In this document: piece by piece, positions 15,050 through 33,903 of the stretch
How positions within the stretch are numbered: the stretch's first letter is position 1
How the letters are laid out: each line of letters begins with the position of its first letter
Source of the DNA: Thermoanaerobaculum aquaticum
Lineage (GTDB): Bacteria; Acidobacteriota; Thermoanaerobaculia; Thermoanaerobaculales; Thermoanaerobaculaceae
Assembly: GCF_000687145.1 (NCBI RefSeq)
Contig: NZ_JMFG01000009.1
Coordinates: 1 to 43,784 of the forward strand
Reading direction: 5' to 3'
DNA: 43,784 nucleotides
Program-made: the position numbers and the translations under genes
The notes under the pieces: generated by a model
What the model saw: the letters and a program-made list of their open reading frames with translations, nothing else
Database searches by the model: none
What the model was told of the DNA's origin: nothing

Positions 15050-15073
15050 AGGGGTTTGCCCGCCGCGTGTCTG

Positions 15074-16141
15074 ATGTCTAAGATGGGCTTGATGAGGAAG
15101 AACGACGCGGTGGTGCCGGTGGACGAGGAAGCACTTCAGCTCCTTTACGACGCGGTGCGTTGCCTTCCCGCGGGTCTTATCGTGGTGAGCGAGGACGGGC
15201 GCATTGCCTTTTGCAATCCCCTGGCGGATGCCATCCGCGGGGTGGGCGAGCGGGTGGGTCACCCGGTGGCCGAGTGCCATCCCCCCCGCGCTTTGCCGGC
15301 TTTGGACAGGCTTTTGGAGCGTTTCCGCCACGCTCCCGCTGACCGTGACCACCCGCTAGTGGTGGAACGGGGTGGTAAGTGGGAGGTGCTTTACCAGCGC
15401 ATTACCGGCGAGGACGGCCGCTTCCGCGGGGTGGTTTGGCTGGCCCACGACATTTCCCGGCACAAGCTTTTACAGCAACAACTTTTGCACCACGAGCGCA
15501 TGGCAGGGCTGGGGAGCATGGCGGCCCGGCTGGCCCACGACATCAAAAACCCCTTAAACATCATCGCCGGCGCGGCCCACAACCTCAAGGAGCTGGTGAG
15601 CGATTCGGTGGCTCGGGAAATGGTAGGGCTCGTTGAGGATCAGGTGCGGCGGGTGGAGGATCTTCTGGCGCAACTGCGGGAGTTGACCCGCCCCCTCAAA
15701 CCCCGTTTTGGGCAAGTGGCGGTCAACGAGCTCTTCAGCGAGTACCTTGGCAAGCAACCGCCGGAGGTGCGGGAGCGGGTGGAGCTGATTCCCCTGGCCG
15801 AGGAACTGCAGGCGCGTTTGGACCCCGACCTTCTGGTGCGCTTCCTCGACAACGCCCTGGCCAACGCCCTCCACCACAGCCCCACGGTTGTGCTTTCCCT
15901 CGGGGTAGCCACGGAACCGGAGGGGGAGTGGCTTTCGGTGACGGTGCGGGACTTTGGGCCGGGCTTCCCCCAGGAGGTTTTGGACCGTCTCTTTGAGCCT
16001 TTCGTTTCCACCCGTCCGGATGGGCTGGGTTTGGGCCTCACGATCATGCGGGAGGTTTGCGTGCTGCACGGTGGGGACCTGCAGGTGGCAAACCACCCCG
16101 AAGGCGGGGCGCTGGTCACCGGGCGGTTGGCCACCCGATGA
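15074..16141 (+). CDS. Cytosolic PAS sensor histidine kinase (NtrB class)
   Basis: This is a soluble kinase of about 355 residues without a membrane helix, so it senses an internal signal. A PAS domain occupies roughly residues 20-130 ([20 protein letters not shown], then [13 protein letters not shown]). The phospho-acceptor H155 lies in [11 protein letters not shown], the hallmark of NtrB-type kinases. The ATP-binding domain has the N box [19 protein letters not shown] and GLGLGLTIM. The ATG at 15074 is preferred; ATGs at 15083 and 15092 are also possible and none has a strong ribosome site. Its stop overlaps the ATG of the NtrC-class regulator, so the two form a pair. Their target is probably the sigma-54 promoter 190 bp further on. 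Confidence 0.85.
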
Positions 16142-17478
16142 GCCACCAAGGCCGGGTTTTCCTGGTGGAAGACGAGCCCGCTGCCGTGCGGGTCACGCAG
16201 TTGGCTTTGGAACGGGCCGGTTTTGAGGTGGTGGCGTGCGAAGATGCCTCCTCCGCCCTGCGCCGCTTTGACGAAGTGCACCCGGACGTGGTGCTGGCCG
16301 ACTACCTGCTGCCCGGGCTTTCCGGGCTTGAGCTTTTGCGGTACGTGATCCGCCGAGCTCCCGATGTGCCGGTGGTGCTCATCACCGGCCACGGAAGCGA
16401 GAAGCTGGCGGTGGAGGCGCTTAAGCTGGGGGCCTACTCCTACCTCCCCAAGCCCTTGGATTTCGAGGAGCTGGCCTTGGTCCTCCGCCGGGCGGTGGAG
16501 CTCAAGAGGCTGCGGGAGGAAAGCCGCCAGGCGCGGCTTGCCAGCGTCACCGAAGAGCTGGTGGGTCGCTCCCAGGCTTTGGCGCAGGTGCGCCAGCTCA
16601 TCGCCGACATCGCACCCACGGAGGTCACGGTGCTCATCCTGGGGGAAACCGGCACCGGGAAGGAGCTGGTGGCCCGGGCCATCCATCGCGCCTCTCGCCG
16701 TGCCCGGGGCCGTTTTGTGGCCGTCAACTGCGCGGCCATTCCCGAAACCCTGCTGGAAGCGGAGCTTTTCGGCTACGTGAAGGGAGCCTTCACAGGCGCC
16801 GAGGCGCGGCGGGAGGGGAAGTTTGTGGCCGCCTCCGGGGGAACGCTGTTTTTGGATGAGGTGGGGGAGCTTCCCCTTTCGCTGCAACCCAAGCTGTTGC
16901 GGGCCTTAGAAGAGAAGGAAGTTACGCCGCTGGGTTCCGATCGGCCGGTGGCGGTGGATGTGCGCCTGGTGGCGGCCACCAATCGGGACCTTGAGGCTCT
17001 GGTCAAAGAGGGCAGGTTTCGCCCTGACCTTTACTTCCGCCTCAACGTGGTGCCCATCCACCTTCCCCCGCTGCGGGAAAGGCGGGAGGACATTGAACCC
17101 CTGGTGCAGTACCTCCTGCCCCGCATTGCTGCCCGCCATGGCAAGCCCATCCGCGATGTCCAGCCGGAGCTTTACGCGTGGCTTTCGGCCCAGGACTGGC
17201 CGGGCAACGTGCGGGAGCTGGAAAACACCCTGGAGCGGCTGGTGGTGTTGTCCTCCGATGGTGTGTTGCGGGTCCCCGCCGGAGGTGGGGGGCTTCTCCA
17301 TCCGTTTTATGAGGAAAAAGAGCGGGTACTGGCGGCTTTTGAAAAGGAGTACCTGCGCCAGGCGCTGCAGATGGTCCAGGGTAACCTGGCCGAGCTTTCC
17401 CGCCGCTCGGGGATCTCCCCCAGGCACCTTTACAACCTCTTGAGGAAGCACGGCTTACATCAGGAGAAAAGCGAGTAG
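16138..17478 (+). CDS. NtrC-class sigma-54 activator
   Basis: This response regulator activates sigma-54 RNA polymerase. The 446-residue protein has a receiver domain with phospho-acceptor D55 in [10 protein letters not shown] and lysine in YLPKPL. An AAA+ domain follows with Walker A GETGTGKE near residue 168, the sigma-54 contact loop GAFTGA near 216, Walker [10 protein letters not shown] and the arginine-containing [12 protein letters not shown]-terminal Fis-type helix-turn-helix reads [23 protein letters not shown]. All elements needed for activity are present. It is coupled to the kinase gene by ATGA and lies 195 bp before a strong sigma-54 promoter, its likely target. Confidence 0.92.
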
Positions 17479-17505: not shown

Positions 17506-17595
17506 CGGCACGGTTTTGCCGCTGCTTGCTGTCGCTAACCCACTGACCTCCAACTAGTTACTATGAGTTACAAAATCCTCGGCAATGTAATGCCG
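17506..17595. promoter_or_regulatory. Pair of palindromic activator sites upstream of the Rieske operon
   Basis: CGGCA-N6-TGCCG occurs twice, at 17506-17521 and 17580-17595, with identical arms and different centres. The copies are 74 bp apart, close to seven helical turns, so they face the same side of DNA. Their centres lie about 185 and 110 bp before the expected start, the usual range for sigma-54 enhancers. They are probably bound by the NtrC-class protein encoded just upstream. Confidence 0.6.
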
Positions 17596-17672
17596 AATCT
17601 CGGGCGTCGGTCGTCCTTTTGAAAATCGGCTAAAGTCTTGCCATAGCTTGACAAAGCTTTTGCGTCTGCAGT

Positions 17673-17688
17673 TGGCACGCAACTTGCT
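17673..17688 (+). promoter_or_regulatory. Sigma-54 promoter of the Rieske-octahaem-Nap operon
   Basis: TGGCAC-N5-TTGCT matches the -24/-12 consensus with the GG and GC dinucleotides at the required 12-base offset. Transcription would begin near 17699, right at the ribosome-binding site GGGGAGG, leaving a leader of only about 12 bases before the ATG at 17711. Confidence 0.85.
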
Positions 17689-17710
17689 CTGCCTTCCCCG
17701 GGGAGGTGGT

Positions 17711-18154
17711 ATGGCCGAGAGCAACCGCCGGGAGTTTTTGGTCAACCTCATTTTGGGCCTTTCGGTAATCCCCGGTTTTGCCTGGGCAGCGCGGCACGTG
17801 CTGCGGTACCTGGTGCCACCCAAGAGCCAACGCACCACCGAGGTGCTCCTCACGCGCCTTTCGGATTTGCCGGTAGGCAGCGGCCGGGAGTTCAAGGGGG
17901 TGTTGGGCAACGACCTAATTGCCGCACGCCTGCCCTCCGGGGACGTCAGGGTCTTTTCCTCCATTTGCACGCACCTGGGGTGCCACATCCAGTGGGATCA
18001 GGTGGCGGGGAACTTCTTGTGTCCGTGCCATCTGGGGCGGTTTGACACAGAGGGCAAGGTGCTCGCCGGTCCTCCTCCCACTCCCTTGCCTTCGTTCGCG
18101 GTGCGAGTCAGCGGCAATGACGTGTACGTGACGGTTCCGGTAAAGGAGGGGTAG
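17711..18154 (+). CDS. Rieske iron-sulfur protein
   Basis: This is the high-potential [2Fe-2S] subunit of a cytochrome bc-type quinol oxidase. It has 147 residues, with an N-terminal NRREFLVN motif and a hydrophobic segment at about 10-26 that form a TAT-type signal anchor. Cluster ligands are C86 and H88 in CTHLGC and C104 and H107 in CPCHLGRFD, with C91 and C106 placed for the structural disulfide. It is the first gene after the sigma-54 promoter and lies three bases before cytochrome b. No cytochrome c1 or f follows; instead an octahaem cytochrome does, which suggests that electrons from the Rieske centre pass to dedicated multihaem proteins. Confidence 0.93.
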   Translation: MAESNRREFLVNLILGLSVIPGFAWAARHVLRYLVPPKSQRTTEVLLTRLSDLPVGSGREFKGVLGNDLIAARLPSGDVRVFSSICTHLGCHIQWDQVAGNFLCPCHLGRFDTEGKVLAGPPPTPLPSFAVRVSGNDVYVTVPVKEG

Positions 18155-18157
18155 GGC

Positions 18158-19273
18158 ATGGCAAGCCGTCCGGAAATCCCGAAGTGGCTACGCTTTTTGC
18201 GGGAGAGGGTCCCGGTCAACATCGAGGTTTTTGAGGAGCTTTCCAAGGAGCCCATCCCCCACCACATGAAGAACTGGTGGTACTGCCTGGGTGGAACGCC
18301 CCTCATGCTGCTGGCCGTACAGGTGGTGACCGGCATCCTTTTGACCTTTTACTACCGCCCGTCCCCCGAAGACGCTTACAACTCGGTGCGCATGATTACC
18401 GAGGAAATCCCCTTTGGCTGGTGGATCCGCTCGGTGCATCACTGGGCCGCCAATCTCATGGTGCTGGCGGTGGGCCTGCACATGATTCGTGTGTTTTTCA
18501 CCGGAGCTTACCGCAAGCCGCGAGAGCTCAATTGGGTGGTGGGCACGGGTTTGCTGTTTACCACGCTGGGTTTTGCCTTTACCGGCTATGCCCTGGTTTA
18601 TGACCAGCTCTCCTACTGGGCAGCCACCGTGGGCACCAACGTGGCGGAGCAGTTCCCGGTCATCGGTCCGTGGATCGCCAGACTTCTTCGTGGCGGCGAA
18701 GCCGTCAACCCCACCACCCTCACGCGGTTTTTCGTGTTTCACGTGGGGGCGATGCCCACGCTGATGGTGATTCTCCTGGGCATGCACATTTTCCTCTTGC
18801 GGGTGCACGGCGTTATGGAGCTGGAAGCCCCGGAGGAGGTGCAGCAAACCCCATTGACCGTGGAAGAAGACCGGGAAGGCAAGAGGCGCTTCGATCCCAA
18901 CCGTTTCTTTGCCTTTTTCCCCGATCACGTGACCACCGAGCTTCTGGTGGGGATGTTCCTGTTGACGCTCCTGACCATGCTAGCTATTGTCTTTCCAGCC
19001 CACTTGGGGCCACCGGCCAACCCCGACGAGACCCCGCTCCACATCAAGCCCGAGTGGTACTTCTACCCGGTGTTTCGCTGGTTGAAGCTGGTGCCACTGT
19101 GGCTGGCCATGGGTGGCCTGCTGGTTGGCGGCTTGGCCTTCGTGCTGTGGCCTTTTATTGACGGCTGGATCCGCAGGGTCAAACCGCGCAGTGAATTGGG
19201 AACTGCCGTTGGCGCGGTGGCGGCTTTGCTGTTGGTGACTTTCTTGCTTTGGGAAGCATTAGCCACGCACTAA
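18158..19273 (+). CDS. Cytochrome b of a Rieske/cytochrome b complex
   Basis: This is the integral membrane subunit that oxidises quinol and splits its electrons between the Rieske centre and two b haems. The 371-residue protein carries the b6-like four-helix half with haem-ligand histidines in VHHWAANLM and GLHMIRVF, and in FHVGAMPTLM and LGMHIFLL. The subunit IV-like half follows with the quinol-site motif PEWYFYP near residue 300. Both halves are fused in one chain but the C-terminus is shorter than in mitochondrial-type cytochrome b. The N-terminal block HHMKNWWYCLGG is typical of Gram-negative anaerobes with multihaem partners. It is separated from the Rieske gene by three bases. Confidence 0.92.
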   Translation: MASRPEIPKWLRFLRERVPVNIEVFEELSKEPIPHHMKNWWYCLGGTPLMLLAVQVVTGILLTFYYRPSPEDAYNSVRMITEEIPFGWWIRSVHHWAANLMVLAVGLHMIRVFFTGAYRKPRELNWVVGTGLLFTTLGFAFTGYALVYDQLSYWAATVGTNVAEQFPVIGPWIARLLRGGEAVNPTTLTRFFVFHVGAMPTLMVILLGMHIFLLRVHGVMELEAPEEVQQTPLTVEEDREGKRRFDPNRFFAFFPDHVTTELLVGMFLLTLLTMLAIVFPAHLGPPANPDETPLHIKPEWYFYPVFRWLKLVPLWLAMGGLLVGGLAFVLWPFIDGWIRRVKPRSELGTAVGAVAALLLVTFLLWEALATH

Positions 19274-19289: not shown

Positions 19290-20663
19290 ATGAGCCTTCA
19301 GTTCAAGAAGATCATCGTCGCGATATTTGCCGTGGCCTTTACGGCTGCCGTAATCATCGTTGGGCTTATCGAAAAGGAGCGGGCCAAGCCGGAAAAAGCC
19401 GCCGCGGCGTACGCCGATGAGGCCACCAAGGCGTGCATTACCTGCCATGACGAGAAGCACGTGGCGGTGGACTGGAGCCGGCAGTGGGAGCAGTCCCGCC
19501 ACGCGCAGAAGGGTATTGGCTGCATGGCCTGCCATGAGGCCAAGGACGGTGACAAAGACCTGTGGCTGCACGAGGGCTACAAGATTGCTACGGTCCCGTC
19601 GCCTCTGGATTGCAAGTCCTGCCACGAGCAGCAGTTCAAGGAGTTCACCGAGTCCCACCACGCCAAGGCGGCGCAGTTTATCGGTTCTCTCGACAACATC
19701 CTGGGTGAAATTGCTGAAGGAACACCGGCGGCCAACCTGGGGTGCAAGCAGTGCCACGGTTCCACGGTGCAAATCCAGCGCACCGGTGATCCCAAAACCG
19801 ACGGTCTTCCCTTACCCGGGTCCTGGCCCAACACCGGCATTGGCCGGGTGAACCCCGATGGTTCCCTGGGCACCTGCACGGCATGCCACACCAGGCATAT
19901 GTTCTCCAAACAGCAGGCGCGCGAACCCCGCACCTGCGGTCGTTGCCACATGGGCCCCGACCACCCGCAAATCGAGATTTACGAGGAGTCCAAACACGGG
20001 ATCATGTTTGCCGCCTGGCGCGACAAGATGCGTTTGGATGCCGACGAGTGGATCGTGGGCAAGACCTACACCGCCGCACCCACCTGCGCCACCTGCCATA
20101 TGGGCGCCACACCCACCATGAAAGGCACCCACGACGTGGGCGCCCGCATTTCCTGGACCTTGCGGCCGCTTTTCTCCAAGCGACTGGAAAACTGGCAGGA
20201 AAAGCGTGATCGCATGAAGAAGGTTTGCCTGGAATGCCACGGCAAGAACTGGGTGGACAACTACTTCGTGATGTTTGATGACGCCGTGGAGCTCTGGAAC
20301 AACAAGTTCGCCAAGCCCGCCAACGACATCATGGAAAAGCTCAAGGCCGCCGGCAAGGTTACGCCTACGCCTTTTGACGATCCCATCGAGTGGACCTTCT
20401 ACGAGCTGTGGCACCACGAAGGCCGTCGCGCCCGCCACGGTGCTTCCATGATGGGGCCCGACTTCACCCAGTGGCATGGCTTCTACGAGGTGGCCAAGCA
20501 CTTCTACACCAAGTTCTTACCGGAAGCGGAGCACCTCTTGCCTGGGGTCACCGCTGGCATCAACCAGCTCCCCGAGCATGCCTGGCGGCAGGGGCTTACC
20601 AAGGAGCAAATTCAGCAGATGCTGGACTTCTACCAAAAGAGGTACCAACAACGGGTGCAGTAA
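19290..20663 (+). CDS. hao: Octahaem cytochrome c, hydroxylamine oxidoreductase family
   Basis: This 457-residue protein has a hydrophobic N-terminus (about 8-27) that could be a signal or a membrane anchor. It has eight haem motifs: CITCH (49-53), CMACH (78-82), CKSCH, CKQCH, CTACH, CGRCH, CATCH and CLECH. The block CGRCHMGPDHPQIEIYEESKHG, then THDVGARISW and WHHEGRRARHGASMMGPDF, marks it as a HAO relative rather than NrfA; no CxxCK haem is present. HAO-family proteins oxidise hydroxylamine or hydrazine, or run in reverse to reduce nitrite. The position I would align with the cross-linking tyrosine of catabolic HAO is phenylalanine (GPDF), favouring the reductive direction. With NapA in the same operon, nitrite reduction is the likely role. 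Confidence 0.87.
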   Translation: MSLQFKKIIVAIFAVAFTAAVIIVGLIEKERAKPEKAAAAYADEATKACITCHDEKHVAVDWSRQWEQSRHAQKGIGCMACHEAKDGDKDLWLHEGYKIATVPSPLDCKSCHEQQFKEFTESHHAKAAQFIGSLDNILGEIAEGTPAANLGCKQCHGSTVQIQRTGDPKTDGLPLPGSWPNTGIGRVNPDGSLGTCTACHTRHMFSKQQAREPRTCGRCHMGPDHPQIEIYEESKHGIMFAAWRDKMRLDADEWIVGKTYTAAPTCATCHMGATPTMKGTHDVGARISWTLRPLFSKRLENWQEKRDRMKKVCLECHGKNWVDNYFVMFDDAVELWNNKFAKPANDIMEKLKAAGKVTPTPFDDPIEWTFYELWHHEGRRARHGASMMGPDFTQWHGFYEVAKHFYTKFLPEAEHLLPGVTAGINQLPEHAWRQGLTKEQIQQMLDFYQKRYQQRVQ

Positions 20664-20720: not shown

Positions 20721-20740
20721 AAAGAAAGGAGGAGACGGTG

Positions 20741-22252
20741 ATGAAACGGTGGATGGTTATTGTGATGGTCATGGTGGTCGTGGGCTTTGCCTGGGCGCAA
20801 AACCCACAAGCCCAAGCTTCCCCGGAAAAGCCCAAGCTTTCCTTGAGTTTGTCGGGGTTTTACGAGTTCAACGGGTACACCCAGAACAACTTCTTCTTCG
20901 GTGCCCGTCCATCTGGCCTGGTCACCGACCACGACGATTACGCCATTCAGCTCTTGCGCTTGCAAAGCGAGCTGGCTTACGGCCCCAACGTGAAAGCGGT
21001 GATGCGGGTGGACTACGCCCAGGGTATCTGGGGCATTGACGACCAGTACCGGGATAACTTCCGTCCGGGATTTTCCAACCTCTACAACAACAAGGACACC
21101 AACTCCACGGTGCACGTGGACTGGGCTTACGTCGAATTCAACGCGGCTAAGCTCGGGAACACCACCTTCCGCATCGGTCGCATGAAAAACGCCCTGGGTA
21201 ACCTGCTGGTGTTGGATCAGGACGGCGACAGCGTGCAGGTGTCGAAAAAGCTGGGGAACTGGGCTGCCACCCTTAACTGGACCAAGATGTACGAAGGTGC
21301 CGATAGCCTCACCGACAACGCTGTGGGCGCCACCAACGGCAAAGACGCCGATCTCTTTTACGTGAACTTTGCAGGTAAAGTGGGCAACTTTGACCTCCAG
21401 CCCTACCTGGCGTACTACACCGATCGCGGTTATCGCGACAACACCACGTACCTCCCCAACGAGCTGCAGTACTTCAACGCTCGCTTCCGCCCCAACATCA
21501 CCACCGCGCAAGTGGCGGGCTTGGCGTTCAACGGAAAGGTGGGGAACCTGAGCCTCAAAGGCGAGGTGGACTACCTCTGGGGCAAAGACAAGGTGCGCAA
21601 CACCAACTCCGGGCCCAACCAGCTTTTGGATGTGAACAACGGCGATCTGGAGGGCTACAACCTCTACCTGGATGCCAAGCTGCCGGTGGGCAAGACCACG
21701 CTGGGGGCGGTGTTTGGCATGGGTTCCGGTGACGACGATCCCATGTCCGGCAAGGGCAACATCAACAAGATCCGCACCAACGGCTTCTTCTACGTAACGG
21801 AAATTTGGGAAGATTCCATCATGCCCGATGAGGAAGGCATTACCCCCCAGGGCCTGGGTTCTCCCGCCTCCCGTGGCTACAGGGAATTTGAAAACACCAC
21901 GCTCCTGCAGCTCAACGCTACCTTCCCGCTGCGCCAAGACCTCAAGCTTTTCCTCTCTGGCACCTACATCCGCGCCACCGAAGCCCTGCACCCCTGGGCC
22001 GATGCCAACGGCAACAACGCCATTGATCCCGGCGAGTTTGGTGCGGCCTCTTCCCGCGACCTGGGCAAGGAAATTGACTTCAAGCTCGACTGGACGGTGA
22101 TGGACAACCTGGTGTGGACGCTCAGGGGAGGCTACTTCTGGCCGGGTGATGCGGCGCTGTACCTGGTGAACGGCAACGCCCGCCACGACAAGGAAGCTTG
22201 GGAGCTGCGGACCCAGCTTACCTTTACCTTTGGTGGGCTGAAGGTCATGTAA
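20741..22252 (+). CDS. Outer-membrane porin-like beta-barrel
   Basis: This 503-residue protein has a cleavable signal peptide (residues 1-20, ending FAWAQ). Its long alternating, aromatic-rich strands (LSLSLSGFYEFNGYTQNNF, TTFRIGRMKNALGN, LTFTFGGLKVM) indicate an outer-membrane barrel. Segments such as RIGRMKNALGNLLVLDQDGDSVQVSK resemble anion-selective or alginate-export-type porins. It sits between the octahaem and tetrahaem cytochrome genes of the same operon, so it may let nitrate or nitrite into the periplasm, or form part of an electron conduit; the sequence alone does not decide. The start is the ATG at 20741, eight bases after AAAGGAGG; a GTG at 20738 is in frame. Confidence 0.72.
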   Translation: MKRWMVIVMVMVVVGFAWAQNPQAQASPEKPKLSLSLSGFYEFNGYTQNNFFFGARPSGLVTDHDDYAIQLLRLQSELAYGPNVKAVMRVDYAQGIWGIDDQYRDNFRPGFSNLYNNKDTNSTVHVDWAYVEFNAAKLGNTTFRIGRMKNALGNLLVLDQDGDSVQVSKKLGNWAATLNWTKMYEGADSLTDNAVGATNGKDADLFYVNFAGKVGNFDLQPYLAYYTDRGYRDNTTYLPNELQYFNARFRPNITTAQVAGLAFNGKVGNLSLKGEVDYLWGKDKVRNTNSGPNQLLDVNNGDLEGYNLYLDAKLPVGKTTLGAVFGMGSGDDDPMSGKGNINKIRTNGFFYVTEIWEDSIMPDEEGITPQGLGSPASRGYREFENTTLLQLNATFPLRQDLKLFLSGTYIRATEALHPWADANGNNAIDPGEFGAASSRDLGKEIDFKLDWTVMDNLVWTLRGGYFWPGDAALYLVNGNARHDKEAWELRTQLTFTFGGLKVM

Positions 22253-22263
22253 AGGAGGCGGTT

Positions 22264-22638
22264 ATGAAAGGAAGGCTGCTGATAGGCCTTTTGGTGCTGT
22301 TGCCCTTTGTCCTAGGAGCAGCACCGGCCAAGAAGAGCAAGGTGGTCCACCCGGACGTGGACACCGAGGAAGCCTGCGACGTTTGCCACCGCGAGGTGAC
22401 CCCGGAACTGGTGGATGCCTGGTACAAGAGCCGCCATGGGCTGATGAACGTCAAGTGCTTCGTGTGCCACGGCACCATTGGCCCTGAGTTTATGCGGCGG
22501 GCCCCGGTATCCCGCTGCGTGGGTTGCCACAAGGACAAGGTGGAATCGCTTTCCAACCCCTTTTTCAAGGGGAAGGATTGCTTTTCCTGCCATGCGGGGC
22601 ATGAGCTCAACCCCCATAAGATTGGAGGTGGGCAATGA
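22264..22638 (+). CDS. Periplasmic tetrahaem cytochrome c next to NapA
   Basis: This is a 124-residue precursor with a signal peptide (about 1-20, ending LGAAPA) and four haem motifs: CDVCH, CFVCH, CVGCH and CFSCH. The pattern WYKSRHGLMNVKCFVCH (W-x-x-S-x-H before a haem) is common in NrfB/c554/HAO-type multihaem chains. It overlaps napA by four bases (ATGA). No napB or napC is seen, so this protein is the best candidate for delivering electrons to NapA, to the octahaem enzyme, or to both. AAGGAGG precedes the start. Confidence 0.85.
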   Translation: MKGRLLIGLLVLLPFVLGAAPAKKSKVVHPDVDTEEACDVCHREVTPELVDAWYKSRHGLMNVKCFVCHGTIGPEFMRRAPVSRCVGCHKDKVESLSNPFFKGKDCFSCHAGHELNPHKIGGGQ

Positions 22639-24884
22639 GCATTTCTCGAAGGGAGTTTCTGGAATCAGCAGCTGCCGCTTCGGCGCTGGCCGCCCTCTCG
22701 GGTTTGCCGCGCCCGGCGCAAGCGGCGGGTGGCGAGAAGTGGGTTAAATCGGTGTGCCGGTACTGCGGCACCGGCTGCGGGCTTTACATTGGGGTCCGGG
22801 ACGGCAAGGTCTTTGCGGTAAAGGGCGACAAAGAAAACCACAACCAGGGCTTTTTGTGCTTGAAGGGCTTCCTTTTGCCGCAAATCCTCACCGCGCCCAC
22901 CCGCTGCCTGTACCCCATGATCCGCAAGGACGGCAAGCTCGTTCGCGCCACCTGGGACGAAGCCATGAGCCTGGTGGCCGCCAGGTTCAAGGAGGCTATC
23001 GAAAAGTACGGGCCTGATTCTGTGGCGTTTTACGGCTCCGGCCAGGGCTTGACCGAAGAAACCTACGTAGCCAACAAGCTCTTCAAGGCCGGCATCCGCA
23101 CCAACAACGTGGATGGCAACCCCCGGCTGTGCATGGCTTCGGCGGTGGGGGGCTACGTCACCACCTACGGCAAAGACGAACCCATGGGCTGCTACGAGGA
23201 CATTGACCACGCCGATGTGTTCCTGCTGGTAGGTTCCAACACCGCGGAGTGCCACCCTATCCTTTTCCAGCGCATCGTACGCCGTAAGGAAAAGGCCCCG
23301 GGGACTAAGGTCATCGTTTTGGACCCGCGCCGCACCCCCACCGCCCGTATTGCCGATTTGCACATTTCTTTCAAACCCGGCACCGACTTGGCCATCCTCA
23401 ACGCCATGGCGTACGTGTTGGTGCAGGAAGGCCTCATTGACGAGGAGTTCATCAAAAACCACGTGACCTTTGGGGAAGGTACTGAAGCCAACAAGAGCTT
23501 CGAGGACTACAAGGCTTTCCTTGCCCAATACACCCCGGAAAAAGCCGCGGAAATTGCTGGTTGCAAAGCGGAAGACATTGTCACGGCGGCGCGCTGGTTT
23601 GGGGAAAAAGGAAAAGCATCCATGTCCATGTGGACCATGGGCTTAAACCAGCGCACCAAGGGTGTTTGGGCCAACAACCTGGTGCACAACCTCCACCTCA
23701 TTACCGGCAAAATCGGCACACCTGGTTCCACCCCCTTCTCCCTCACCGGCCAACCTAACGCCTGCGGCGGCGTTCGCGACGGTGGCGCCCTCTCACACCT
23801 CTTGCCCTACGGTCGCCTCATTGCCAACGAAGCCCATCGCAAGGAAATGGAAAAGCTTTGGGGCGTCCCTGAGGGGACCCTCAAGCCCAAACCGGGCCCT
23901 TCTACCGTGGAAATGTTCCAAAAGATCGAAGCTGGCGAAATCAAGTGCGTTTACATCATGTGCACCAACCCTGGCCAATCCCTGCCCAACGTGGGCCGCT
24001 ACCGCAAGGCCCTCCAGCGGGAAGACGTGTTCGTGGTGGTGGCGGAAGCCTTCCACCCCACCCGCACCACGGAGCTGGCGGATGTGGTGCTCCCCGCTGC
24101 CGCTTGGGCGGAAAAAGAAGGTGTTTACGGCTGCTCGGAGCGACGCTATCAGCTTTTGGAGCAAGCCATCCCGCCTTCCGGCGAGTCTCGCCCTGACTTC
24201 GAGATCCTCTGTGATTTGGGCCGTCGTTTGGGCTTGGGTCACCTGGTGCCGTTTAAGACTCCAACCGACGTTTGGAACGAAATCCTCACCATTTGCAAGG
24301 GCACCGTTTATGACTTTTCTGGCATGACCCGGGAACGGTTGCGGCAAGCCCACGGCATCCTTTGGCCAGCGCCCACTGCCGATCACCCGGGAACTAAGCG
24401 CCGCTACGTGAAAGGCGAGGATCCTTTCGTGCCCGCTGACTGGCCCCACCGCATCAAGTTTTACGGGCGCCCGGATAGCAGGGCAGTGGTGTGGATGCGT
24501 CCGTTTAAGGGGCCGGAAGAGGCTCCCGACGCCGACTACCCCATGTACTACACCACGGGCCGGGTTATCGAACACTGGCACACCGGCACCATGACCCGTA
24601 CCTGCAAGGAGTTGGTGCACGCCAACGCTGAAGCGGTGGCGGAAATGCACCCCGCCGATGCCGCCAAGCTGGGGGTCAAGACCGGGGACAAGGTCAAGAT
24701 CAGCTCCCGTCGCGGCAGCGAGGTGTTTAAGGTGAAGGTCACAGACACCTCCAGGGAAAACCTGGTGTTCGTCCACATGCATGACGACCAGCACCTGTGC
24801 AACCTCATCACCATTGATGCCTTGGACCCCATTTCCAAACAGCCAGAGTTCAAGATTTGCGGCGTCAAAGTGGACAAGGCTTAA
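22635..24884 (+). CDS. napA: Periplasmic nitrate reductase catalytic subunit
   Basis: NapA reduces nitrate to nitrite at a molybdenum bis-MGD centre in the periplasm. The 749-residue precursor starts with a TAT signal (SRREFLESAAAASALAAL). [4Fe-4S] ligands C41, C44 and C48 are in CRYCGTGCG and C75 is in GFLCLKG. The molybdenum ligand is C166 in NPRLCMASAV, a NapA-type context; a formate dehydrogenase would have Sec or Cys in a different setting. CTNPGQSLPN and the C-terminal cofactor segment (YYTTGRVIEHWHTGTMTR) are also typical. The length is near that of the monomeric Desulfovibrio-type Nap. An assimilatory NasA is less likely because of the TAT signal and the neighbouring napD, napG and napH. 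Confidence 0.9.
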   Translation: MSISRREFLESAAAASALAALSGLPRPAQAAGGEKWVKSVCRYCGTGCGLYIGVRDGKVFAVKGDKENHNQGFLCLKGFLLPQILTAPTRCLYPMIRKDGKLVRATWDEAMSLVAARFKEAIEKYGPDSVAFYGSGQGLTEETYVANKLFKAGIRTNNVDGNPRLCMASAVGGYVTTYGKDEPMGCYEDIDHADVFLLVGSNTAECHPILFQRIVRRKEKAPGTKVIVLDPRRTPTARIADLHISFKPGTDLAILNAMAYVLVQEGLIDEEFIKNHVTFGEGTEANKSFEDYKAFLAQYTPEKAAEIAGCKAEDIVTAARWFGEKGKASMSMWTMGLNQRTKGVWANNLVHNLHLITGKIGTPGSTPFSLTGQPNACGGVRDGGALSHLLPYGRLIANEAHRKEMEKLWGVPEGTLKPKPGPSTVEMFQKIEAGEIKCVYIMCTNPGQSLPNVGRYRKALQREDVFVVVAEAFHPTRTTELADVVLPAAAWAEKEGVYGCSERRYQLLEQAIPPSGESRPDFEILCDLGRRLGLGHLVPFKTPTDVWNEILTICKGTVYDFSGMTRERLRQAHGILWPAPTADHPGTKRRYVKGEDPFVPADWPHRIKFYGRPDSRAVVWMRPFKGPEEAPDADYPMYYTTGRVIEHWHTGTMTRTCKELVHANAEAVAEMHPADAAKLGVKTGDKVKISSRRGSEVFKVKVTDTSRENLVFVHMHDDQHLCNLITIDALDPISKQPEFKICGVKVDKA

Positions 24885-24943: not shown

Positions 24944-25180
24944 ATGGTCATTGCCGGAGTGCTCATTACCACCAAGCCTGGGCAAGCACCTTTGGTGGCC
25001 GCAGCTTTGGCCGCCTCGCCAAACCTGAAGCTGGTAGGTGGGGATGGTCACGAAAAAATTGCCGCGGTAGTAAGCGGAGAAACTGGAGAAGCCCTGGAAA
25101 CTTGGGCTGAAGAGCTTTTAGCCGAAGACGAGCGCATCCTGGGGGTCTACCCCACCTTTGTAGGCGACGATCGGGCATGA
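24944..25180 (+). CDS. napD: NapD-like nitrate reductase maturation chaperone
   Basis: NapD binds the TAT signal of NapA in the cytoplasm and holds export until the cofactor is inserted. The protein is 78 residues, small as expected, and begins MVIAGVLITTKPGQ, the ferredoxin-like first strand common to NapD. A later segment ILGVYPTFVGDD matches the family's ending strand. CAAGGAGG precedes the ATG. Its stop overlaps the next ATG as ATGA. Identification rests on size, opening motif and position after napA. Confidence 0.8.
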   Translation: MVIAGVLITTKPGQAPLVAAALAASPNLKLVGGDGHEKIAAVVSGETGEALETWAEELLAEDERILGVYPTFVGDDRA

Positions 25181-25692
25181 GGCGCAGCCGTCGGGGTCTT
25201 ATTGCCTTCGTCTTCGCTCGCCCACCGCTTCGCCCCCCCGGCGCCAGGCCCGAGGAAGAGTTTGCGGCGCTTTGCATCCGCTGTAACCGCTGCGTGGCGG
25301 CCTGCCCCTACAAGACCCTCAAGCCAGCCGGCTGGATTTACGGAGAGCGGGCTGGCACGCCGTTGGTAGTGGCGCGGGAGGTCCCCTGCTACCTGTGCAT
25401 GGCCTGCCCGCCGGTTTGTCCCACCGGCGCCTTAGAGCCCATAACCGACAAACGCGCCGTGCGCATGGGCGTGGCCGTGGTAGACCCGCAAACCTGCTTT
25501 GCCCACCAGGGTATCCTCTGCCGCACCTGCGTTGACGAATGCCCCCTGGAAGGCGAGGCCATTTACCAAAACGGCGAGCTCAAGCCGGTGGTGACCGACA
25601 AATGCGTGGGGTGCGGGGTTTGCGAAAAGGTCTGTCCAGCTCCCGAGGTGGCCATCGTGGTGCGGCCGCGAGGTGAGGGAGAGGGGGCATGA
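25177..25692 (+). CDS. napG: NapG-like four-cluster ferredoxin
   Basis: This 171-residue iron-sulfur protein has cysteine groups for four [4Fe-4S] clusters: CIRCNRCVAACP, CYLCMACPPVCP, CRTCVDECP and CVGCGVCEKVCP. The segment LRPPGARPEEEFAALCIRCNRC is typical of NapG/MauM proteins, which take electrons from the membrane quinol dehydrogenase NapH toward NapA. The N-terminus MRRSRRGL has arginines but no clear TAT motif or long hydrophobic stretch, so its location is uncertain: it may be cytoplasmic, or exported with a partner. It overlaps both neighbours by ATGA, tying it tightly to napD and napH. Confidence 0.8.
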   Translation: MRRSRRGLIAFVFARPPLRPPGARPEEEFAALCIRCNRCVAACPYKTLKPAGWIYGERAGTPLVVAREVPCYLCMACPPVCPTGALEPITDKRAVRMGVAVVDPQTCFAHQGILCRTCVDECPLEGEAIYQNGELKPVVTDKCVGCGVCEKVCPAPEVAIVVRPRGEGEGA

Positions 25693-26531
25693 AAAGGCCC
25701 TACCGGTGGACCCCTCTGCGGCGCACCGTTCAAGCTCTCGTAGCCCTCTTTTACTTTGCCTTGCCCTGGCTGAACCGCTGGGGCTTTCGGGGCTTGATGG
25801 GCAACCTGGCTTCCCTCAAGGTAGGGCCGGTGGATTTGGCCGAGCCCGCCAGTGCCCTTTCGGTGGTCCTGGCTGCCGGGAAGGTCACCGGACAAATCCT
25901 GCTGGCGGCGCTTCCGGTGTTGGCCCTGGCGCTGGTGATGGGCCCGGTGTTTTGCTCCTGGGTGTGCCCCTGGGGCTTCCTGTCGGAAGGGTTGGACAAC
26001 CTGAAGATCCGCACGCTCCACCTGCACCGAACCTGGACCGCCGAGGGTTACCGCAAGCTGCGGCCGCTGCGGGTGGTAGGGCTATTTGTCTTTCTGCTGG
26101 CTTCCTTCCTTTTGGCCAGCCCCCTCGTTGCGTTGCTGGCACCCCCCCGCTTGCTCACCGCGCTACCGCAGGAGCTTTTTTACCTGGGCGTACGGCCGTG
26201 GGTGACCGGCAGCCTGCTGGTGCTCTGGCTGGTCGCCGAGCTTTTGTTGCCCCGGCGCTGGGTTTGCCGGGCCCTCTGCCCGGTGGGGACGCTGTGGAAC
26301 TTCCTGCGCACACCCTGGACACTAGCAGTGCGGTTTGACCCTTCCCTGTGCGTGGACCCCAAGGTCGCTCCCTGTCACCTCCACTGCCCCTGGGGCATCG
26401 ATCCCCGCTCCATGGGCCGTTTTGACGGCTGCACCAACTGTTTGCGCTGCGTGGAGGGCTGCCCCTCCCACGCCCTGGAGGTCGGCTTTCGCCCCTCTGC
26501 CGGTCGCCCGCCGGGCAAGTCTGGAGAGTGA
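25689..26531 (+). CDS. napH: NapH-like membrane quinol dehydrogenase subunit
   Basis: NapH oxidises menaquinol in the membrane and passes electrons to NapG. The 280-residue protein has about four membrane helices. The two conserved CxxxCP loops are CSWVCPWG and CRALCPVG, and two [4Fe-4S] binding sites near the C-terminus include CTNCLRCVEGCP and a preceding set beginning CVDPKVAPCHLHCP. It is the last gene of the sigma-54 operon, and its stop abuts the stop of the convergent DUF2339 gene with no space for a terminator. Confidence 0.85.
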   Translation: MKRPYRWTPLRRTVQALVALFYFALPWLNRWGFRGLMGNLASLKVGPVDLAEPASALSVVLAAGKVTGQILLAALPVLALALVMGPVFCSWVCPWGFLSEGLDNLKIRTLHLHRTWTAEGYRKLRPLRVVGLFVFLLASFLLASPLVALLAPPRLLTALPQELFYLGVRPWVTGSLLVLWLVAELLLPRRWVCRALCPVGTLWNFLRTPWTLAVRFDPSLCVDPKVAPCHLHCPWGIDPRSMGRFDGCTNCLRCVEGCPSHALEVGFRPSAGRPPGKSGE

Positions 26532-32202: not shown

Positions 32203-32224
32203 TTTGTACTACAGGCGTGCTTTA

Positions 32225-32240
32225 TGGCACAACCTCTGCA
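32225..32240 (+). promoter_or_regulatory. Sigma-54 promoter of the haem-kinase operon
   Basis: TGGCAC-N5-CTGCA keeps the GG and GC pairs at the same 12-base offset as the promoter at 17673. Transcription would start near 32250, giving a leader of about 64 bases. This also argues against the ATG at 32224, which would lie inside the promoter. Confidence 0.68.
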
Positions 32241-32313
32241 GCGGACGGGTCGGGGGAACGGGTATGGGCGGGTTAGGGGCGGTGGGCGGGAGCGACCCAA
32301 GGAGGAGCAACAG

Positions 32314-33903
32314 GTGAGGCTGGCGGCAAAGCTTACAGCCATTGTGGCGGTGGGGTTAATCGTGGTCTTTGGAACCATGACGGCCTTAAACCTGTGGCTG
32401 CAGGAACGTGCCACTTTGAAGATCTTGCAGCTCAATGGCATGCAGTTGGGCGACATGGTGGTGGCGGCAACGCGGGACGGGATGCTCCATAACGATCGCG
32501 AACGGATTCAAGCAACGGTGGAGGCACTCGCCCACCGCGGGGAAATGGGCGTCATCCGCATCATGCGGAAAGACGGCACGATCATGTACTCCAGCCTCCC
32601 CGGGGAAATTGGGCAGCGGCTGAGCCTCAACGACGAGCAGTGCGTGGTTTGCCATACCGGCTCGGTCCCGCCGCGGGAACTGCCGCCGGAGCAGCGAACC
32701 CGCATGCTCCATGGAAGCGGTGGAAGGGCTCTTGGGGTAATCCAAACCATCCTCAACGAAAAGGAGTGCGCCCAGGCCGCTTGTCACGTCCACCAGGAAA
32801 CCGAAACGCTCTTGGGAATTCTGGATGTGAACGTGTGGCTGACGCCCCATGAGGAAATCCGCACCAAAAGCGCGGCGGGGATGACGCTGGTGAGCATCCT
32901 CGGCATCGTTTTGGGCATTGGGGCTACGGCCTTGGCGGTGCGCCGGCTGGTGCACCTCCGGGTGCGCAAGCTCATTGACCACACGCAAAAGATTGCCTCT
33001 GGGGATCTTTCCGCTCGGGTTCCGGAGGTGGGAAACGACGAGCTAACGGATTTGGCAAGGCATTTTAACCGCATGGCCCGGGATTTGGAGGCCGCCCGGG
33101 AAGAGCTTTTGGAATGGGGCAGAACGCTAGAAATGCGGGTGGAGGAAAAAGCCCGGGAGCTGGAAAAGGCCAAGGATCACATCTTGCAGGTGGAAAAAAT
33201 GGCCTCGCTGGGCAAGCTGGCAGCGGTGGTGGCTCACGAAATCAACAACCCTCTTTCCAGCGTGGTGACCTACGCCAAGGTTCTCATCCGCAGGCTGCAA
33301 ACCCATCAGCTCAGCGAAGAGTGCAAGGAAAACTTGCGCTATTTGGATGCCATTGTTTCTGAGGCAAGTCGCTGTGGGCGCATTGTCAACCAGCTCCTTT
33401 CCTTTGCCCGCAAAAAGGATGGCGATTTTAGCCCCACAAACCTCAACGAAGTGGCGGAAAAGGCAGTTTTTCTGGTTCAGCACAAGCTCGACTTGAGCAA
33501 CGTGAAGGCCGTCATGGAGCTGGCGCCGGACCTTCCATCGGTGATCGCCGATGCCGGGCAGATCCAGCAAGCCCTTATGGCTTTGCTTATCAACGCCGCC
33601 GAGGCCATGGCCAGCACGGGCGGGCAAGTGAAGGTCATAACCGCCCGAGCTGACGGAGGGGTTCTCGTTACCGTGGAAGATACCGGACCCGGGATGACCC
33701 CCGAGGTGGCCGCCCGCGCTTTCGAGCCGTTTTTTACCACCAAGTCCCAAGGTGGTGTGGGCCTTGGGCTTTCGGTGGTGTACGGGATTGTGGAACGGCA
33801 CGGCGGGCGCATTGATTTGCAAACCGCCCCGGGCCAGGGGTGCCGGGTCACCATGTTCTTCCCGCTGGTGCCGGCCTCCCACGAGGGAAAGGAGGGGTCA
33901 TGA
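32314..33903 (+). CDS. Haem-c-binding sensor histidine kinase
   Basis: This is a membrane sensor kinase of 529 residues. One membrane helix lies near residues 9-27 and another near 187-210. The periplasmic region between them carries two c-type haem attachment sites, CVVCH at 110-114 and the spaced variant C-x4-CH at 152-158, followed by LLGILDVNVWL, a PAS/Cache-like strand. A HAMP linker follows (LRVRKLIDHTQKIASGDLSARVPE), then a coiled coil, the phospho-acceptor H308 in VVAHEINNPLSS, and an ATP-binding domain with VEDTGPGM and GVGLGLSVV. It probably senses redox state, NO or another haem ligand. The GTG at 32314 is chosen because AAGGAGG lies eight bases upstream. Its stop overlaps the regulator gene by ATGA. 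Confidence 0.87.
   Translation: MRLAAKLTAIVAVGLIVVFGTMTALNLWLQERATLKILQLNGMQLGDMVVAATRDGMLHNDRERIQATVEALAHRGEMGVIRIMRKDGTIMYSSLPGEIGQRLSLNDEQCVVCHTGSVPPRELPPEQRTRMLHGSGGRALGVIQTILNEKECAQAACHVHQETETLLGILDVNVWLTPHEEIRTKSAAGMTLVSILGIVLGIGATALAVRRLVHLRVRKLIDHTQKIASGDLSARVPEVGNDELTDLARHFNRMARDLEAAREELLEWGRTLEMRVEEKARELEKAKDHILQVEKMASLGKLAAVVAHEINNPLSSVVTYAKVLIRRLQTHQLSEECKENLRYLDAIVSEASRCGRIVNQLLSFARKKDGDFSPTNLNEVAEKAVFLVQHKLDLSNVKAVMELAPDLPSVIADAGQIQQALMALLINAAEAMASTGGQVKVITARADGGVLVTVEDTGPGMTPEVAARAFEPFFTTKSQGGVGLGLSVVYGIVERHGGRIDLQTAPGQGCRVTMFFPLVPASHEGKEGS

Follow-up and report, generated by a model that had tools for sequence, protein, structure and literature searches.

Twin palindromes as candidate activator sites of a predicted sigma-54-controlled nitrate/nitrite respiration operon in Thermoanaerobaculum aquaticum and related genomes

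Activators of the NtrC/NR(I) type combine a receiver, an AAA+ domain with the GAFTGA motif and a Fis-type helix-turn-helix (HTH), are paired with a kinase, and serve -24/-12 promoters from two palindromic sites, one near -110 and one further upstream. At glnA the NtrC sites are about three helical turns apart. The locus described here is alike in all of these general features, but its palindromes are seven turns apart, they differ in sequence, and the predicted target is nitrate/nitrite respiration. NorR, another sigma-54 activator, senses NO directly and is not known to have a partner kinase. It resembles the present system in having repeated upstream palindromes and nitrogen-oxide genes as targets, but its tandem sites are GT-N7-AC, and both site and target enzymes differ from those found here (PMC1274295). 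Palindromes with GGCA half-sites are used by the sigma-54-dependent flagellar activators FlbD of Caulobacter (CCCGGCA-N5-TGCCGGG) and DVU1063 of Desulfovibrio (GGCA-N4-TGCC), with spacers of 5 or 4 bp as opposed to 6 bp here (PMC3333781). In contrast to these flagellar systems, the regulator considered here has an intact phospho-acceptor, a partner kinase and a predicted respiratory target, and the T. aquaticum strain has been described as nonmotile (PMC4056298).

On the side of the target, the closest described gene clusters are those of Caldithrix abyssi and Deferribacter autotrophicus, which also carry NapM, NapA, NapG and NapH together with an octaheme epsilon-Hao-type cytochrome (PMC5317091, PMC6896113), with Rieske/cytochrome b, as here, in the Caldithrix cluster (PMC5317091). 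Unlike those clusters, as far as the excerpted text of the two reports describes them, the operon here includes a porin gene; the same excerpts make no mention of sigma-54 or two-component control. What is known, then, is that two-component sigma-54 activators use palindromic upstream sites; what appears to be new is a predicted nap-operon regulon with an unusually constant enhancer geometry, of which a limited literature search returned no prior description.

We analysed a stretch of 43,784 nucleotides from T. aquaticum (genome G000; the whole stretch is referred to as the window). The features relevant to the argument are as follows.

15056..16141, plus strand: sensor histidine kinase (Pfam: PAS, HisKA with HDIKNP, HATPase)
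16138..17478, plus strand: NtrC-family response regulator (Pfam: receiver, AAA+ with GAFTGA, Fis-type HTH)
17506-17521, no strand: distal candidate activator site CGGCACGGTTTTGCCG, exact CGGCA-N6-TGCCG, centre at about -185
17580-17595, no strand: proximal candidate activator site CGGCAATGTAATGCCG, exact CGGCA-N6-TGCCG, centre at about -111
17673-17688, plus strand: sigma-54 promoter -24/-12 element TGGCACGcaacTTGCT, the sole zero-mismatch match in the window
17711..18154, plus strand: Rieske 2Fe-2S protein, first gene of the operon (Pfam)
18158..19273, plus strand: cytochrome b of the bc/b6 type (Pfam)
19290..20663, plus strand: octaheme cytochrome c of the HAO / epsilon-Hao group (eight CXXCH; 4qo5, E 8e-45)
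20738..22252, plus strand: outer-membrane porin-like protein (Pfam Alginate_exp match)
22264..22638 (start position approximate), plus strand: NapM-like tetraheme cytochrome c (four CXXCH)
22635..24884, plus strand: NapA-type periplasmic nitrate reductase catalytic subunit with Tat signal (2jio/2nap, E 3e-284)
24944..26531, plus strand: NapD-, NapG- and NapH-like genes (NapG by family match, NapD and NapH by position and by gene order conserved among orthologous operons)

The first-pass annotation had placed an NtrC-class activator and its kinase directly upstream of the palindromes, and the domain searches bear this out. The stop codon of the kinase gene overlaps the start of the regulator gene (ATGA), and the kinase PAS domain contains a CLP and a CHP that are invariant in the orthologue alignment. 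The regulator (PDB match 4l4u, E 2e-101) has the receiver, the sigma-54 interaction AAA+ domain with GAFTGA and the Fis-type HTH of the NtrC family, and palindromic sites upstream of a -24/-12 promoter are likewise as found for that family. Its phospho-acceptor Asp is conserved and intact, and with the adjacent candidate cognate kinase this is the composition of a two-component system. It is neither NtrC/NR(I) itself (413.1 bits against an equivalog cut-off of 558.6) nor FlbD (321.4 bits against a curated cut-off of 750), and the palindromes lack the spacer of the FlbD type. Orthologues elsewhere in the phylum, Acidobacteriota, are 55-90% identical and set apart from paralogues; they have in common, with small changes, the recognition helix RxLYNLxxKHGL, which is absent from the other activators listed. 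A second sigma-54 two-component pair is present in the window; the N-terminal sensor region of its kinase (32224-33903) contains one CXXCH and one CX4CH motif, and the protein may for this reason bind heme.

The catalytic subunit NapA, together with genes for NapD and NapGH, identifies a Nap cluster. Among solved structures, those closest to NapA are 2jio/2nap, which are periplasmic nitrate reductases of the short type, and the NCBIfam NapA model is the best match of the subunit, although it scores under the cut-off of that model. The octaheme protein has eight CXXCH motifs and is related to HAO, with an alignment that spans the central part only. The operon would serve nitrate/nitrite reduction, probably towards ammonium. 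For T. aquaticum MP-01, likely the strain sequenced here, a nap operon has been recorded and growth on nitrate was not observed (PMC5900883, PMC4056298), and the description of the strain found no evidence for nitrate reduction (PMC4056298).

As had been proposed from the letters alone, a sigma-54 promoter follows the palindromes: a perfect -24/-12 element (17673-17688) stands between them and the Rieske ATG at 17711. In addition, rpoN, the sigma-54 gene, is found in the genome. Since the GC of the -12 box is at 17686-17687, the start site is predicted near 17699, just upstream of the ribosome-binding site. This puts the centres of the palindromes near -185 and -111, in agreement with the positions of about -185 and -110 first suggested. 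Both palindromes, starting at 17506 and 17580, are exact with identical arms, again as first read, and their start-to-start spacing of 74 bp corresponds to 7.05 turns at 10.5 bp per turn. The distal one starts 27 bp past the regulator stop codon, and 93 bp separate the start of the proximal one from the -24 element. Another conserved block, TTGCCATAGCTTGACA, is seen at 17638-17653, 35 bp before the -24 element, with the counterpart TTGCCAAAGCGTGACA at 34 bp in the congener G002; the block, an imperfect inverted repeat, could be bound by another factor.

Exact CGGCA-N6-TGCCG occurs twice in the window against an expectation of 0.14, a count reached in 1 of 100 window shuffles. The 232 bp intergenic region from the regulator stop to the Rieske ATG contains both copies, and none of 4000 dinucleotide shuffles of that region had two. 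Pattern searches of the whole genome (68 contigs, 2,660,928 bases) returned 26 copies of the 16-mer, 24 of which sit within ORFs of 150 codons or more; the two promoter copies are therefore the sole intergenic ones. The first-pass annotation had held that random scatter in coding DNA would count against the motif; such scatter is indeed seen for the other 24 copies, and it does not apply to the two at the promoter. In relatives without the system, the extended 18-mer TCGGCA-N6-TGCCGA is found just as often. Neither the bare nor the extended palindrome was therefore retained as a stand-alone regulon finder, and because the 16-mer is non-specific the case rests on position and conservation and not on the word.

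The genome scan that had been proposed, for palindromes upstream of -24/-12 promoters, singles out this locus: among 20 close -24/-12 matches, an exact palindrome is found within 400 bp upstream only here, and the scan thus returned no further targets among them. One other match has a single-mismatch palindrome 356 bp upstream. The composite of palindrome and promoter occurs once in the genome, at the Rieske promoter. In a search of 396 genomes, an exact palindrome followed by a -24/-12 element within 64-94 bp was found once each in T. aquaticum, G002 and G005, at the Rieske promoter in each case, and also in four unrelated genomes (G167, G344, G352 and G362), which were taken as background. 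Exact twin palindromes are found in 6 of 392 genomes, at the nap-operon promoter in three of these; the matches in the other three (G021, G167 and G276) look coding or repeat-like. In G167, pairs of CGGCAC-N4-GTGCCG recur with equal spacing at two places (L269, L274) and are possibly a dispersed repeat.

Of the 40 closest genomes, 8 encode a cytochrome b of the cassette type, with 53% identity or more, and all eight have the orthologous regulator. Ten orthologous promoter regions could be read, and with searches that used the 6-bp spacer only, the exact palindrome was found in nine and a single-mismatch version in the tenth (G031). Beyond T. aquaticum and G002, the exact form recurs in G005, G028, G029, G142, G150, G299 and G313. 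The ten regions are not all independent, as G000/G002, G028/G029 and G142/G313 are congeneric pairs. Outside this set are G026 and G034, the contigs of which end too early, and G027, which shows the regulator only. The consensus drawn from twelve exact sites is TCGGCAAT-NN-ATTGCCGA, and the GG and GC cores of the -24/-12 element are retained in the orthologous promoters. Between T. aquaticum and G002, the arm bases are identical at 20 of 20 positions, with both palindromes at 74 bp spacing, as compared with 72 of 189 positions (38%) in the remaining intergenic alignment; arm identity of this degree would arise by chance with a probability of about 4e-9.

The spacing is also conserved. The proximal site is 93, 92, 93, 92, 93 and 91 bp from the -24 element in G000, G002, G005, G313, G142 and G299, respectively. 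A second exact site follows further upstream at 74, 74 and 76 bp in G000, G002 and G313 (in the last with CGGTATaagcgTTGCA as the promoter element), and a degenerate one at 77, 77 and 78 bp in G005, G142 and G299. The degenerate copies have one mismatch in G005 (like T. aquaticum and G002 of family f1), where the site overlaps the 3' end of the regulator ORF and is contained in its final codons, two in G142 and one in G299 (both, like G313, of family f18). In G150 (family f45), an exact site precedes a -24/-12-like element by 89 bp ahead of a porin-NapMADGH operon, and the kinase gene is itself preceded by another exact site, at 78 bp from TGGCGCagcctTTGCT (L261, 13470 and 13407). This combination of exact palindrome and sigma-54-like promoter upstream of the kinase-regulator genes suggests that they are autoregulated in this genome. 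A pair of sites at fixed spacing is not found everywhere: family f2 (G028, G029 and G031), in which the Rieske and porin operons diverge, shows a single site, at 329 bp from the -24 element (exact, G028 and G029) or 368 bp (one mismatch, G031). In G028 the locus is rearranged, with regulator and site kilobases apart. The link first predicted between regulator, site and target held in this comparison, with orthologues, nap-type operon and palindrome found together across families.

Outside this orthologous group, the best of the regulator matches listed, which are mostly paralogues, is encoded on a Schekmanbacteria contig (L084, 3735-5078; 51% identity). It has the same recognition helix and a Glu at the receiver position, and two exact palindromes (5375 and 6594) are located inside ORFs by a radical-SAM/leader-peptide-like cluster, apparently for peptide maturation. 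Given the palindromes in ORFs and the lack of a clear -24/-12 element, it was not counted as evidence.

The regulators of family f18 (G142, G299 and G313; loci L263 9738-11057, L264 11542-12873 and L262 3-1304) have the phospho-acceptor Asp replaced by Ser or another residue. In the two genomes with a readable flank (G142 and G299), a search next to the regulator gave no kinase gene, and orthologues with an adjacent kinase retain the Asp. The loss of the Asp and the lack of an adjacent kinase together mean that phosphorylation cannot be required in f18, and the DNA palindromes persist in all three genomes. The G299 regulator (L264 copy) may be broken or mis-assembled, as indicated by an in-frame TAG before the HTH.

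We consider it very probable, from gene content, motif and comparative evidence, that the palindromes are upstream activator sites of the regulator encoded at 16138-17478, driving the Rieske-to-NapH operon via sigma-54. The PAS domain of the kinase would sense a signal, for which nitrate, nitrite or redox state are candidates, and the kinase would phosphorylate the receiver of the regulator. One dimer would bind each palindrome, and phosphorylated dimers on the two sites, being on the same face of the helix, would assemble an AAA+ ring. By looping, the ring would reach the sigma-54 RNA polymerase at 17673-17688, and the remodelled polymerase would open the promoter for transcription of the Rieske, cytochrome b, octaheme cytochrome, porin and NapMADGH genes.

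The best surviving alternative is that a different protein, either another sigma-54 activator or a repressor, binds the palindromes and that the neighbouring regulator acts elsewhere. The genome has 14 activator-family matches at E <= 1e-60, and similar GGCA half-sites are used by other activators (FlbD, DVU1063; PMC3333781). Nevertheless we judge this improbable, as the site tracks the regulator orthologues across distant genomes, including the one in which the locus is rearranged, as a copy precedes the kinase-regulator genes themselves in G150, and as the orthologues share a distinctive recognition helix. Very unlikely, and less likely still than binding by another protein, is that the hairpin-capable palindromes work at the RNA level, for instance by terminating transcripts of the kinase-regulator genes. 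The short distance of the distal copy from the regulator stop, the TTTT that follows it in G002 and a terminator-like scan match, confined to the minus strand, at the proximal site would fit such a role. However, the plus strand in T. aquaticum lacks a T run, an Rfam search gave no match, and the site is in a divergent promoter region in G028, G029 and G031 and ahead of the kinase gene in G150; we regard a terminator or other RNA role as unsupported. That a common G+C-rich word occurs here by chance, as its many ORF copies and similar counts in genomes without the system might suggest, is strongly disfavoured by the intergenic shuffles, the 20 of 20 arm identity against a background of 38% and the recurrence in ten orthologous promoter regions.

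Activation by the adjacent regulator, the reading we favour, would give a regulator, motif and target for a nitrate/nitrite respiration operon in a phylum with little-studied regulation. It also bears on a recorded puzzle, that of a nap operon in a strain, likely the one sequenced here, for which growth on nitrate was not seen; one explanation would be that sigma-54 control keeps the operon silent as long as its signal is absent. Nature also provides, in the constant spacing and in the orphan regulators that cannot be phosphorylated, a comparison from which the roles of enhancer geometry and phosphorylation may be judged. We give an even chance to the broader proposition that this is an undescribed sigma-54 nitrate/nitrite regulon of this phylum with a rigid enhancer layout, in which seven turns separate the two dimer sites and the distance to the promoter is fixed at 91-93 bp, and with an orphan activator in one lineage. 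If true, that lineage dropped the adjacent kinase gene and the phospho-acceptor and kept the sites, and a two-component switch would thereby have become an orphan activator.
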